Positions 43,330 to 49,018 of a DNA stretch of 64,000 bases are shown in pieces. Where the stretch lies: positions 204,875 through 268,874 of the forward strand of contig JAJEJD010000019.1 in NCBI GenBank assembly GCA_022828125.1. The letters are read 5' to 3'. How positions within the stretch are numbered: the first letter of the stretch is position 1; each line of letters begins with the position of its first letter. The translations under genes were made by a program, and so were the position numbers. Origin of the DNA: a bacterium. GTDB taxonomy: Bacteria > UBA8248. Under the pieces are notes generated by a model, which was given only the letters and a program-made list of their open reading frames with translations, made no database searches and had not been told where the DNA came from.

Positions 43330-43692
43330 TTGGACTGGATAGGGGCGGGACTTCTGGTACTGGGCGCGGTCGTGGGCACCTTGAACGCGGCCACCGGCGT
43401 GGGCTGGGGCATCATCGTGGTGCCGACGCTGTTCCTCATTCCCTCGCTCACGCCCCAGCAGGCCGTGGCGGTCTCTATACTCGCCTACCTGTTCAACTCG
43501 CTGGTCGCCTCGTTCGAGAACGTGCGGAGCGGCCTAATTGTCTGGAATTACGCGGTTTACTTGAGCATCGGGGCGGTCGTGGGCGGCGTCGTGGGCGCCC
43601 ATCTGCTCCAGACCTTCTCGGCCCTGACGCTCAAGAGAATCGTGGGCGTGGCGGTGATAGCAGCGGGTGCGCAACTGCTCATCAACCGCTGA
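43330..43692 (+). CDS. Half-length TauE/SafE-type sulfite exporter
   Basis: A 120-residue membrane protein with about four helices. G-A-G-L-L-V-L-G-A-V-V-G-T-L-N-A-A-T-G-V-G is the first signature of TauE/SafE transporters, followed by the P-x-x-A-V-A-V-S segment near 44-52. The usual protein has two such halves (about 250 residues); this one ends after one and then has a terminator. TTG start at 43330, seven bases after AAGGAG. It may work as a homodimer. Confidence 0.75.
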   Translation: MDWIGAGLLVLGAVVGTLNAATGVGWGIIVVPTLFLIPSLTPQQAVAVSILAYLFNSLVASFENVRSGLIVWNYAVYLSIGAVVGGVVGAHLLQTFSALTLKRIVGVAVIAAGAQLLINR

Positions 43693-43969: not shown

Positions 43970-44323
43970 TCAGCCCTCCCCTTCCCCCGAGTTTCCGGCG
44001 CGCCCGGGAGCGATATCGTAAAGATAATCAAACGAATAGATGCCCGCTCCGCATCCTCCCCGCCAGATGAAATTGATGGCGTAGCGCCCCACCATCTCGA
44101 CGTTCTCAAGCTCCGCGGGCCCGCTCGGCCCCGAGAGAACCGCGAGGGGGTTTTTCTCGCGCGCCTTGCGCTCCTCCTTGCAGTTCGCGCACGGGCAAAG
44201 GGCAGCGAGGTAATCGAAGCCGTAGGCGCTCTTCTCCCCGCTCGCCCACTCGACGCGAAATTCGCGGGCGGGCTTGTCCACCGTGAGGTCGACGGGGTGG
44301 GCCTTGTCGACAGGCGCGCTCAT
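43970..44323 (-). CDS. DUF971 (gamma-butyrobetaine hydroxylase N-terminal-like) protein
   Basis: A 117-residue protein with the DUF971 pattern: V-E-W-A-S-G (~24-29), Y-L-A-A-L-C-P-C-A-N-C (~38-48) with three cysteines, and the C-terminal W-R-G-G-C-G-A-G-I-Y-S-F-D-Y-L segment. In gamma-butyrobetaine hydroxylase this domain binds zinc and precedes the oxygenase; stand-alone forms are of uncertain function and occur beside iron-sulfur or redox genes. It follows the DsbA-like gene by 29 bp. Confidence 0.82.
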   Translation of the reverse strand: MSAPVDKAHPVDLTVDKPAREFRVEWASGEKSAYGFDYLAALCPCANCKEERKAREKNPLAVLSGPSGPAELENVEMVGRYAINFIWRGGCGAGIYSFDYLYDIAPGRAGNSGEGEG

Positions 44324-44352: not shown

Positions 44353-45012
44353 TTATCTCGCCTTCATCCCGTATTTCTCATACTTCTTCGACGAGGCGGT
44401 GCTGAGCTTGGCGGATTGGGGCGTCTTGAGCTCGAGCAGCCAGGGCCGCTCGGCCGAAGTGGCCCGCACGGCGTCCAGGAGACCCTGCTCGTCGCCCTCG
44501 TTCTCCCAATCGCCCTCTTCGAGCTTCACGAAAACGGGTTTGCCCTCCCCGAAATCGAGCGTGGGAACGCCGAAAATACCCTGCTCGGCCGCGTCCTCAT
44601 GCTCCTGCGCGATGAGGGGGATGGTGGCGCCGCTTTTCATGTCCTCCTCCCAGCGATCGACGTCGAGGCCCACTTCCACGGCGATATCGCGCAGAACCAG
44701 CTCACTGGTGATGTCCTTGCCGTCCTGGTGTTTCGCCCGGTGGAGCGCCACGTGGTACTTGTCGAACTGCGTCTCGCCCTGCAAGGCAGCGCATTTGGCC
44801 GCCTGATGCGGGGGGAGATCCCTGCTCGGGAAGGTCTTGTCCTCCCAGGCCTTCCAGTCCTCGCCCCGCGCCGGGCCGAAATTCGCCTGCTCGAGCACGA
44901 AGGCCTTGTAATCCACTTTCAGATCGCTTCTTTTCTCCTGAAGACGAACGAGCCACTCCATGGCCCTGTAGGCGTAGGGTCAGACGTAGCAGTTCCACAT
45001 GGTGACGTTCAT
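44353..45012 (-). CDS. DsbA/FrnE-like oxidoreductase, probable selenoprotein
   Basis: A 219-residue thioredoxin-fold protein (2-hydroxychromene-2-carboxylate isomerase/DsbA family) with an internal TGA at 44982-44980. Reading through gives M-N-V-T-M-W-N-C-Y-V-U-P-Y-A-Y-R; relatives have Cys at the U position, the catalytic residue of the C-P-Y motif. AAGGAG lies six bases before ATG 45012, which only makes sense if the TGA is read through, since the next in-frame ATG (44961) has no such site. G-I-F-G-V-P-T-L, the cis-proline motif, is at ~164-171. First gene of a three-gene minus-strand run with DUF971 and a CxxU ORF. Confidence 0.85.
44950..44966 (-). promoter_or_regulatory. Candidate bacterial SECIS in DsbA-like gene
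   Basis: GGGCCA pairs with UGGCUC (one G-U) around the five-base loop UGGAG. The loop begins 20 nt after the TGA and contains G at its second and third positions, within the 16-37 nt range known for bacterial SECIS loops. Pairing by eye only. Confidence 0.5.
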
Positions 45013-45120
45013 GATTTTCTCCTTAAGATAAGCCATAAAGAAACATTTCGCGCCAATCATACACCACAAGAACGCAGATGAAAAAGCAGAGCGAAGTCTT
45101 TTGAAAATAGCCCTTTTCCG

Positions 45121-45720
45121 CTAATTTTCAGGCGTGAGCGCCTTGTTCAGCAATGCTTCCGCGCCCGCATTCAGGGAAAGCTCCCTGGCGGCCTCCTGCC
45201 CGCGCGCGGACATTTTCACCCAGGTTTTCCGCAAGATGCCGATGATTTTCTCCTCGTCATGCAGACGGGAGAAATCCCAGAAATAGCTCTCCAGAAACAC
45301 CAGACAGGCGACATCCTCGAGCGTCTGGGTTTCCGGGTTGGATCTCAATCCCTTTTTTTTCAGCAACTTGCGTACTCGTGCTATCGTTTCCTCATCGTAA
45401 CCCACCTTCTTGAGAATCTCGGCTGCTTTCTCCCCATGATAGTCATAAAGGCGGGTCCGCCATTGGTGATATCCCTTCCGACCCAGCGGATATTCCGAGC
45501 GGGGAATCTCCCATCTGCGTATATGTTGGCTGTGAACCGCCAGACAAAGGGCCTCTGAGGCTTGCGGCTCGATGGTTTCGAGCCATTTCGTCATTCTCAT
45601 CGAATACAAAAGCTCTTTGGGATAATCTTCGCCCTCGAAACTCTCGGTGTTCGGATCCTCGGAATTCGCCTCATCGATGAGACGCAAAGCATCTTCAAAA
45701 CGTTTGGGGTTTTCATTCAT
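45121..45720 (-). CDS. DUF4202 domain-containing protein
   Basis: A 199-residue cytosolic protein of the DUF4202 family. F-E-D-A-L-R-L-I-D-E-A-N-S-E-D-P, then Q-H-I-R-R-W-E-I-P-R-S-x-Y-P-x-G-R-x-G-Y-H-x-W-R and the E-D-V-A-C-L-V-F-L-E-S-Y motif are typical, with histidines set like an HD-type metal site. The family often neighbours sulfite reductase genes, as here. It is divergent from cobA across a shared 170-bp control region. Start at 45720, not the in-frame 45768, because of AAGGTG upstream. Confidence 0.85.
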   Translation of the reverse strand: MNENPKRFEDALRLIDEANSEDPNTESFEGEDYPKELLYSMRMTKWLETIEPQASEALCLAVHSQHIRRWEIPRSEYPLGRKGYHQWRTRLYDYHGEKAAEILKKVGYDEETIARVRKLLKKKGLRSNPETQTLEDVACLVFLESYFWDFSRLHDEEKIIGILRKTWVKMSARGQEAARELSLNAGAEALLNKALTPEN

Positions 45721-45797
45721 GATGAGCACCTTTGTAGTGATTAGCATCAAAATATCTATTCCAGACAAAACAACTTAAGAATAAACGCTTGCTCGGG

Positions 45798-45854: not shown

Positions 45855-45892
45855 AATAAAAAGAAAAGTTGATTTTTATACGGGAATCTCTT

Positions 45893-46702
45893 ATGTATCA
45901 AGGAAAAGTGCAGATTGTGGGAGCAGGTCCCGGGGACCCGGACTTGCTTACACTCAAGGCGGCAAAAGCTCTCTCAAGCGCAGACTTGGTGGTTTACGAC
46001 CGTCTCGTGAACCCTGAGGTTCTTGAGCTTTGCCCGGAAAACTGCCAACTCATCAATGCGGGAAAATCCAGCGGTCGACACACCATGAGCCAAGATAACA
46101 TCAACGAAGCTCTCATCCATTTCGCTCATCGCGGTTATCAAGTGGTGCGTCTAAAAGGCGGGGACCCTTTCGTGTTCGGTCGTGGCGGCGAGGAAGCGCA
46201 AGCACTGGCAGAAGCCGGTATTGATTTTGAAATCATACCAGGGGTCAGTTCCGCCCTGGCCGTGCCCGCCTATGCCGGAATACCCGTCACACACCGAAAG
46301 CTCGCCTCGTCGTTCACGGTCGTAACTGCACATGAAGACCCCGGAAAACCGGAAACACAAGTGGATTACGCGCACCTGGCGAAGAACAGGGGGACGCTCG
46401 TTTTCCTCATGGGCGCGCGCTCCATTGGACGCATATCAGCCGCTCTAATCGAAAACGGCATGTCGAAAGACACGCCCGCCGCCATCATCGAAAATGGAAC
46501 CACAAACAGGCAATTGGCCTACCGCTGCTCTTTGGGAGAAGCATCGAGTCTCGCGCAACGCGAAGAAATATCCCCCCCTGCCGTTTTTCTCGTCGGACCC
46601 GTCGCCGGCCTTGAAGACCTCGTCTGGTTCGAGGCCGATGAAAGCCAGGAAATCTCCTGGCGCTGTCCCACGGAAGAAACCCTGAGCAAAGTCATTTCGT
46701 AA
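45893..46702 (+). CDS. cobA: Uroporphyrinogen-III C-methyltransferase
   Basis: A 269-residue SAM-dependent methylase making precorrin-2, the first step to siroheme. V-G-A-G-P-G-D-P-D-L-L-T (residues ~9-20), the R-L-K-G-G-D-P-F-V-F-G-R-G-G-E-E-A segment (~85-101) and the G-I-P-V-T-H-R motif are the classic SUMT signatures. It has no oxidase/ferrochelatase domain; the CbiX-like gene downstream may do the metal insertion. Start at 45893 by homology (M-Y-Q-G-K-V-Q-I-V-G). Confidence 0.95.
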   Translation: MYQGKVQIVGAGPGDPDLLTLKAAKALSSADLVVYDRLVNPEVLELCPENCQLINAGKSSGRHTMSQDNINEALIHFAHRGYQVVRLKGGDPFVFGRGGEEAQALAEAGIDFEIIPGVSSALAVPAYAGIPVTHRKLASSFTVVTAHEDPGKPETQVDYAHLAKNRGTLVFLMGARSIGRISAALIENGMSKDTPAAIIENGTTNRQLAYRCSLGEASSLAQREEISPPAVFLVGPVAGLEDLVWFEADESQEISWRCPTEETLSKVIS

Positions 46703-46775
46703 ATGCCGGGCATTAGCCCGGACCATATAATTCATCATCAAATATGTAAGTAGTTCTCCACGTAAGGAGCAAGTG

Positions 46776-48578
46776 ATGCACGAAGAATCACGAAAACCAC
46801 TGCCTCGGGAAACATTGGGCGTCATTCCGGTGATTCCCGAAGAATTCGATGATTTTGAAACACAAGCCACCAGATTCCGAAACGGGGAACTCGATAACGG
46901 CGAGTTTCTCCCCTATCGCCTAAGGCGCGGCGTATATGGCCAGCGTCAGGCGGACGTACAGATGGTGCGCGTGAAAATTCCTTTCGGCGGTCTGAGCGCT
47001 TCCCAACTCGAAGCCCTGGGGCGCGTATCGCGTGATTACGCGCCGTTGGGAAAAGGCCATGTGACGACACGGGAAAACGTGCAGTTTCATTTCGTCCCTC
47101 TCGACCAGTCCGCCGATGTCTTGAGGCTTCTGGGCGAAGTAGGACTGACCACGCGGGAAGCATGTGGAAATTGCGTGAGAAACGTCACCGGTTGTCCCTA
47201 TGCGGGCGTTTGTAAGGATCAGGTTTTCGACGCTACGCCCTACGCAGGCGCGTTTGCGCGTTACTTCGTCCGCAAGGATTTCACCCAAGACCTGCCGCGC
47301 AAATTCAAGGTGGCGTTCTCGAGTTGCGCTTCGGACTGCGTGGTCGGCGGAATTCATGACATCGGTTTCATCCCCGTTATCAAGGAGATGGAAGGAACTC
47401 CCGTGCATGGATTCAAGATGCTCGTCGGCGGCGGGCTGGCTACCTTCGCGCGTACCGCCGAGGTGCTTTACGAGTTTGTTCCGGTATCCGATTTCCTAAG
47501 GGTGAGTGAAGCCCTCATCCGGGTTTTCGACCAGGCGACTGAACTCCGCAAATCCCGCTTCAAGGCGCGTATCAAGTTCCTCGTAAGCTGGATAGGGATA
47601 GACGGGCTCCGCGAACGCGTCGAGGAAGAACTCAAAAAAGATTGGGCGAAAGAACCTGTCAGTCCTGAACCCTATCTTTGGAATGACGACGAAGAAACCG
47701 ACGCTCCACCCGTCTTGAATACCCTGAACGGGGCGGGGGCCAGCCCGAATGGCGACTCGGCGGATTATTACGCCTGGAGAAAAACGAACGTCACCGCGCA
47801 AAGGCAAGAAGGTTATTTCGCCGTCGATGTGAAACTTCCATTGGGGAACATCCATACGGATCAGTTCTTCTCGCTGGCCGACCTCACCCGACGTTTCGCG
47901 AGAGGGCGCGCCAGAACGAGTTTCGAGCAAAACCTTGTCCTGAGATGGGTGCGCGAAGGAGAGCTTTACCCCCTCTGGAAAGAACTCCAACGCATCGGGC
48001 TCGCCGAAAAAGGCGCTCGTGAGATTTCCGACGTGGTTTCCTGCCCGGGAACGGATTCATGCAAACTCGGCATCACCTCTTCCATGGGTCTGGCCAACGC
48101 TATTCGTGAAACACTTCATGAGATTGATCAGGATCCTCTCACGCGGGAGATGCACATCAAGATGAGCGGTTGCCCGAATTCTTGCGGGCAACATCACATC
48201 GCCAACATCGGCTTTCACGGGGGGACGCTCAGGGCGAACGGCGCGATGCTGCCCGCTTATGAAATTTTCCTCGGCGGTCAATACGATAGTACCGATGGAG
48301 AAATCCGCATCGGCAACCGTATCCAGGTTCGGATTCCGGCAAAACGCGTCCCTGCTGCACTCAAGAAAATGTTGTCCCACTACCAGGAAAACAGAAGCGA
48401 AGACGAGCGATTCAACGAGTTTTTGGATCGTGTGGGGAGCGCGTCCTTTGAAGACTTGCTGCAGGAGTTTCACCTTGCCGGCCAGTTCAACGACGAGCCC
48501 GATTCCGATTTGTTCATCGACTGGAGTCAGAACAGGCAATACGTACTGGAAAGAGGAGAAGGCGAATGCCTAGCCTAG
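46776..48578 (+). CDS. Ferredoxin-type sulfite/nitrite reductase
   Basis: A 600-residue siroheme enzyme with the two-repeat fold. The [4Fe-4S]-siroheme cysteines are in C-P-G-T-D-S-C (residues ~423-429) and S-G-C-P-N-S-C-G (~464-471). The N-terminal repeat has a vestigial C-G-N-C-V-R-N-V-T-G-C. R-x-x-x-N-V-Q-F-H near 86-94 is the substrate-binding side. ATG at 46776 with AAGGAG six bases upstream. Operon with cobA before and CbiX-like after suggests sulfite rather than nitrite, though the family covers both. Confidence 0.9.
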   Translation: MHEESRKPLPRETLGVIPVIPEEFDDFETQATRFRNGELDNGEFLPYRLRRGVYGQRQADVQMVRVKIPFGGLSASQLEALGRVSRDYAPLGKGHVTTRENVQFHFVPLDQSADVLRLLGEVGLTTREACGNCVRNVTGCPYAGVCKDQVFDATPYAGAFARYFVRKDFTQDLPRKFKVAFSSCASDCVVGGIHDIGFIPVIKEMEGTPVHGFKMLVGGGLATFARTAEVLYEFVPVSDFLRVSEALIRVFDQATELRKSRFKARIKFLVSWIGIDGLRERVEEELKKDWAKEPVSPEPYLWNDDEETDAPPVLNTLNGAGASPNGDSADYYAWRKTNVTAQRQEGYFAVDVKLPLGNIHTDQFFSLADLTRRFARGRARTSFEQNLVLRWVREGELYPLWKELQRIGLAEKGAREISDVVSCPGTDSCKLGITSSMGLANAIRETLHEIDQDPLTREMHIKMSGCPNSCGQHHIANIGFHGGTLRANGAMLPAYEIFLGGQYDSTDGEIRIGNRIQVRIPAKRVPAALKKMLSHYQENRSEDERFNEFLDRVGSASFEDLLQEFHLAGQFNDEPDSDLFIDWSQNRQYVLERGEGECLA

Positions 48579-49018
48579 AAAAACAATTGGAATTTCTGGA
48601 CGATAAGCCCGAGGACCAGGTAAAAACTGCTGTCTTGCTCATCGGCCACGGCAGTCGCGCACAAAACGCCAACGAAGCGCTGTTCCTCGTCGTGGACCAT
48701 TTTCAAAAAGCATGGCCGCATCGCATATTGAAAGCCGCTTTCCTGGAGATCAGTTACCCCTCCATTCCAGAGGGAATCGACTTGTGCGTAGCGAAAGGGG
48801 CGGAGAGAATCATCGTCATCCCTTACTTTCTTTTCAGGGGCAATCACGTGAAAGTGGACTTGCCCGTCTTCATCAATGAAGGCCGGAGGAAATATCCGGA
48901 TATCGACGTCATTTTGGGCCCGCATCTCGGCTTCCATCCCAAGATGATCGAGATCGTCGATGAACGAATCCAGCAAGTACTCGATACCCTAAAATTCGAG
49001 GAGAATGTGCTCTCATGA
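48566..49018 (+). CDS. CbiX/SirB-like sirohydrochlorin chelatase
   Basis: A 150-residue single-domain chelatase. L-L-I-G-H-G-S-R (~24-31) holds the metal histidine; I-P-Y-F-L-F-x-G-x-H-V-x-x-D-L-P (~87-102) provides the second histidine. Small CbiX^S-type proteins act as homodimers. Overlaps the reductase by 13 bases and the ATP-grasp gene by four. It may insert iron for siroheme; cobalt is possible. Confidence 0.88.
   Translation: MPSLEKQLEFLDDKPEDQVKTAVLLIGHGSRAQNANEALFLVVDHFQKAWPHRILKAAFLEISYPSIPEGIDLCVAKGAERIIVIPYFLFRGNHVKVDLPVFINEGRRKYPDIDVILGPHLGFHPKMIEIVDERIQQVLDTLKFEENVLS

Follow-up and report, generated by a model that had tools for sequence, protein, structure and literature searches.

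A DsbA-like gene with a conserved in-frame UGA, encoding a probable cytosolic selenoprotein with a CxxU-PxA active-site motif

We analysed a bacterial DNA stretch of 64,000 nucleotides, referred to here as the window, and found on its minus strand a gene for a DsbA-like protein with an in-frame TGA at codon 11 (Table 1). The start signals reported in a preliminary description, made from the sequence alone, were all present: AAGGAG, the ATG, ten codons for MNVTMWNCYV, the TGA and then PYAYR, in a frame open to the TAA. When the TGA was read as selenocysteine (Sec), the product was a single 219-residue protein beginning MNVTMWNCYVUPYAYRAMEW, and the PF01323 DSBA profile matched residues 3–154, spanning the TGA, with 67.3 bits against a cut-off of 25.6. 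The same ATG upstream of the TGA was preceded by a Shine-Dalgarno-like stretch in the relatives that share the motif. A mechanical list of open reading frames instead begins the gene at the internal ATG (44961), as had been predicted; going by that list, gene callers would lose the active site. The active-site motif of the Sec protein is CYV-U-PYA (CxxU-PxA), with no downstream resolving Cys. The TGA does lie at the nucleophilic (CP) Cys, as described earlier, but the wording needs correction: there is no resolving Cys (CR) in the motif CxxU-P-Y-A, and Cys8 stands three residues before the Sec.

Table 1 Features at the candidate selenoprotein locus (window coordinates)
Feature	Position	Strand	Remarks
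Complete CDS with in-frame TGA read as Sec, 219 aa, DsbA-like (PF01323)	44353..45012	-	AlphaFold mean pLDDT 91.6
Shine-Dalgarno AAGGAG, 6 nt 5' of ATG	45019..45024	-	Purine stretch SD-like in relatives too
Start ATG of Sec gene	45012-45010	-	
Cys8 codon, 3 residues N-terminal of Sec	44989..44991	-	20/20 CxxU genes; Asp in 27 parsed Cys homologues
TGA, codon 11, predicted Sec at nucleophilic (CP) position, helix 1 N-terminus	44980..44982	-	
Ala14 codon, equivalent to resolving-Cys position of CXXC enzymes	44971..44973	-	
bSECIS-like hairpin GGGCCAU-GGA-GUGGCUC, 7-bp stem, loop beginning 20 nt 3' of UGA	44950..44966	-	
Internal ATG, codon 18, likely ORF-caller start	44959..44961	-	Not conserved
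TAA closing Sec gene	44355-44353	-	
Downstream gene, GBBH-like_N / DUF971, CPCANC motif	43970..44323	-	
Upstream DUF4202 gene	45121..45768	-	Neighbour in some relatives
Divergent siroheme-type cluster	45869..49018	+	Pfam
Tetrapyrrole methylase	45869-46702	+	
Nitrite/sulfite reductase	46773-48578	+	
CbiX chelatase	48566-49018	+	

The TGA had been placed where relatives carry the catalytic Cys, and the homologues bear this out. Among the TGA-free homologues, a Cys occupied the TGA column in 27 of 27 parsed loci, which were drawn from a 390-genome search, from the search that added genome G386, and from one Deinococcus plasmid (locus L110 was left out). All 27 had Asp three residues before this Cys, the residue at +3 being Ala (26) or Ser (1), and locus L108 likewise reads DYLCPVA. 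The tree placed the 15 CxxU rows in one group with support of 99/97, and a branch of modest support (89/77) had the 27 Cys rows together on one side of it, the Sec clade being beside the Cys group and not within it. A diverged Sec form, L058 in genome G049, carries its TGA in DYL-U-PFV, the residues at -3 and +3 being Asp and Val. It fell outside the CxxU group, suggesting from the branching order that more than one gain or loss of Sec may have occurred at the active-site column.

The AlphaFold model, a confident one, revealed a strand at residues 2–7, a loop formed by C8-Y9-V10-U11 and a helix at residues 12–27, a topology that puts the Sec at the classical nucleophile position. As the first strand of the model runs from residue 2 and leaves no export leader, the protein is predicted to be cytosolic.

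We then asked how widely the TGA is conserved. When one genome per species was scanned, 11 of 11 other loci had a TGA at codon 11, nearly all of them from Nitrospinota or Nitrospinae and one from Candidatus Tectomicrobia. The gene was present in 15 of the 18 genomes of the window's phylum, with exactly one TGA each, and the wider search added G065, G112, G250, G379 and then G386, from two other phyla, all reading CYV-U-PYA. Altogether, the TGA, the Cys before it and the Ala after it were found in 20 of 20 genomes with close relatives, covering three GTDB phyla and proteins of about 44–100% identity to that of the window, and by this comparison the conservation of the TGA is well beyond chance. 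A tblastn search against plasmids returned distant relatives only, in Deinococcus and Caballeronia.

The hairpin described earlier, with its loop 20 nt past the TGA, was present as stated, just 3' of the UGA and with a G in its apical loop, in agreement with the bacterial SECIS (bSECIS) criterion. All 19 CxxU genes that were folded shared an identical 7-bp stem core and GGA loop, three of them having a stem of 8 bp; the 27 Cys genes had no common structure, and the hairpin occurred in none of them. The codons that form it were also constrained, with Ala17 being GCC in 18/18 genes, Glu19 GAG in 17/18 and Leu21 CTC in 17/18; these three were the least synonymously variable codons of their kind in the gene, and none of 702 combinations was as low. 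Taken alone, the window's sequence did not fold exceptionally (z +0.7 in 61 nt, z -2.4 in 26 nt), and its hairpin was no stronger than synonymous re-codings (0.32), so the significance of the hairpin lies in its conservation and not in single-sequence folding energy. Covariation was weak, with one double change and a score reached by shuffles in 98 of 500 cases, and was therefore not used as main support. No SECIS family was matched by an Rfam search or by a permissive search of the region.

A profile search of the window's genome for the Sel machinery found SelA (576 bits), SelB (385) and SelD (335), all above their family cut-offs, together with a tRNA-Sec of 76 bits, also above cut-off, with anticodon TCA (UCA). 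The gene for SelD (L033; G000 C30:4116-5078) itself has an in-frame TGA, in GGUGSK, which is the known Sec form of SelD. In a tRNA search of the window's phylum, tRNA-Sec was above cut-off in 15 of 15 carriers of the gene; two genomes without tRNA-Sec (67% and 70% complete) also had no Sec gene, and one genome, G011, had the tRNA and not the gene. On the sequence comparisons described here, the UGA at codon 11 is almost certainly inserted as selenocysteine.

We propose that this UGA would be decoded by the genome's own SelA, SelB, SelD and tRNA-Sec, with insertion directed by the bSECIS hairpin in the coding sequence directly 3' of it. Where DR2335-type DsbA-like proteins have their one catalytic Cys, at the start of helix 1, this protein would have the Sec, whose selenolate would attack a disulfide, peroxide or persulfide. 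The selenium adduct may then be resolved by Cys8, giving a Cys8–Sec11 selenenylsulfide. This last step was proposed because Ala stands at the usual resolving position, and because the residue at position 8 is Cys throughout the CxxU genes and Asp in the Cys genes; from these residue patterns, the chances that Cys8 is the resolving residue appear evenly balanced. The association of Cys8 with Sec11 is a single evolutionary event in the tree and so provides no independent support for this role. Overall, a cytosolic thioredoxin-fold selenoprotein, with Sec11 as nucleophile and with resolution perhaps by Cys8, is the reading that we consider very probable.

The main rival mechanism is a mono-selenol enzyme in the style of monothiol glutaredoxins, GST-kappa or bacilliredoxins, in which Sec11 would form a selenium–sulfur adduct with a low-molecular-weight thiol and Cys8 would be structural or metal-binding; we regard it as a serious possibility of somewhat less than even probability. 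The weaker fold matches of the model were Rv2466c, FrnE, HCCA isomerase and DsbM (solved with GSH), and of these Rv2466c, DsbM and HCCA isomerase use small thiols. Moreover, the Cys homologues have Ala at the resolving position, and DR_2335, a predicted cytoplasmic DsbA-like protein for which a review gives no functional data, has one conserved Cys (PMC8945050), indicating that no resolving Cys is needed for this fold to work. Against a mono-selenol enzyme, however, Cys8 was present in 20/20 CxxU genes from three phyla and in 0/27 of the Cys genes that were parsed, a pattern that may point to a partner specific to Sec.

A true stop at the UGA is highly improbable, whether the locus is taken as a pseudogene, as misread in sequencing, or as a short upstream ORF with a truncated protein translated after it from the internal ATG. 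An internal ATG does exist, and 22 of the window's 54 long, non-overlapping open frames end in TGA, but the interruption is a single codon kept in 20 genomes of three phyla, and the active-site Cys of the homologues falls exactly at its column. We found that dN/dS was about 0.1–0.2 on the 3' side of the TGA and that changes in the ten codons on its 5' side were mainly synonymous, a pattern by which purifying selection is seen to act on both sides. At codon 18, ATG was confined to the window's genus, all other CxxU genes having ACG or GCG; there is thus no conserved internal start, and the homologues do not begin at a shared Met there. Both the pseudogene and the internal start were rejected, being contradicted by the TGA conservation, the selection and the Cys column. 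Decoding of the UGA by a different tRNA, for Trp or Cys, or under a changed genetic code has a negligible probability and the changed code was rejected, since UGA is a common terminator in the window and the genome holds a complete Sec system and a SelD with UGA at the usual Sec site.

The surroundings of the gene give some indication of its role. The DUF971 gene adjoined 18 of the 20 CxxU loci and lay about 1.4 kb off in one more; it was not found near the G065 locus and was absent at all 24 Cys loci examined. The CxCxxC motif of DUF971, which occurs in the Fe–S scaffold HCF101, has been suggested to be metal-binding (PMC7980591). Similar neighbours, siroheme-type and DUF4202, were seen by eye in some relatives. 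The linkage with DUF971, joined in the window's family by linkage with siroheme-type reductase genes, points to a possible role in handling sulfur, metal or Fe–S in the cytosol. Only tentatively do we suggest that such selenoenzymes would make up a subfamily of their own, with the Sec resolved by the Cys three residues upstream and the enzyme acting together with the metal- or Fe–S-binding DUF971 partner encoded beside it. Elsewhere in the window, at 43330–43692, there is a short TauE/SafE-like ORF of 120 residues that matches positions 1–110 of a 237-position profile and is possibly a half-size transporter gene.

By standard gene finding, what would be a real enzyme would be called without its catalytic residue. 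No NCBIfam model covers the Sec protein, so database entries for the genes of this Sec subfamily are probably truncated; with it, the selenoproteome would gain a Sec subfamily. A literature search found no paper that combines Nitrospinota with selenocysteine, and within the portions of the literature consulted we did not find the CxxU-PxA variant described. That Asp(-3) gives way to Cys where Sec is present is relevant to the way in which active sites with Sec are resolved. Since wild-type and active-site mutant structures exist for the Cys counterpart DR2335, whose function is unreported, a direct comparison of Sec and Cys is possible.

That Sec-containing DsbA-like proteins occur in bacteria had been noted at the outset and is borne out by those parts of two papers that list such forms, namely form 1 with UxxC, form 2 with DxxUP, and GOS DsbA 1–3 with UxxC and UxxV (PMC13188914, PMC2398784). 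The window protein shares with them PF01323 and Sec in the active-site motif, but the motifs given in those parts do not include CxxU-PxA, and the window protein has Cys in place of Asp at -3. As far as those accounts extend, CxxU-PxA would be a variant of the known DsbA-like selenoproteins, set apart from form 2 by the reported motif, while DYL-U-PFV of L058 fits the DxxUP/UxxV forms listed there. Two further DsbA-like genes with TGA were observed in the genome, outside this comparison. One, L002 on G000 contig C10 at about 34.6–35.2 kb (TGA at locus position 1992, minus strand), reads YSDFL-U-PWC, has its TGA also in relatives and in other phyla, and fits the known UxxC form. The other, L003 on G000 contig C23 at about 300.0–300.5 kb (TGA at locus position 2022, minus strand), lies outside the window and reads HEYH-TGA-PWAY (UxxA), with further matches in G003 and G005 of one TGA each.

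Three other assignments were considered and rejected. The preliminary label of DsbA/FrnE-like holds for DsbA-like, through PF01323, but not for FrnE proper, which is defined by a CXXC active site with or without a C-terminal CX4C (PMC8945050). FrnE (DR_0659) and other CXXC DsbA/FrnE proteins are cytoplasmic and share the DsbA-like fold; however, the window protein has UPYA in place of CXXC and no C-terminal CX4C, and the fold match is weaker. A periplasmic DsbA does not agree with the lack of a leader, the first strand at residues 2–7 or the Ala at the second site. The thioredoxin-like (seleno)lipoprotein family NF041057 (Rcas_1661) showed weak similarity in the middle of the protein only, at 29.5 bits against a 190-bit cut-off, and the window protein has no lipoprotein leader. 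The best match in both sequence and fold was DR2335 of Deinococcus (PDB 7dk9; C24S mutant 7dka), with 8.8e-14 and a TM of 0.78. Its CPYA aligned to UPYA, it likewise has Ala at the resolving site, and it is predicted to be cytoplasmic, whereas it is 26% identical and has Cys where the window protein would have Sec. The Cys relatives in the tree further differ in having Asp and not Cys at -3 and in the DUF971 gene adjoining 0 of 24 Cys loci. Compared with the DR2335 type, a cytosolic protein with one Cys in CP[FY]A, the window protein agrees in fold and motif, with Sec in place of Cys, but in the tree it belongs to the clade beside the Cys group.
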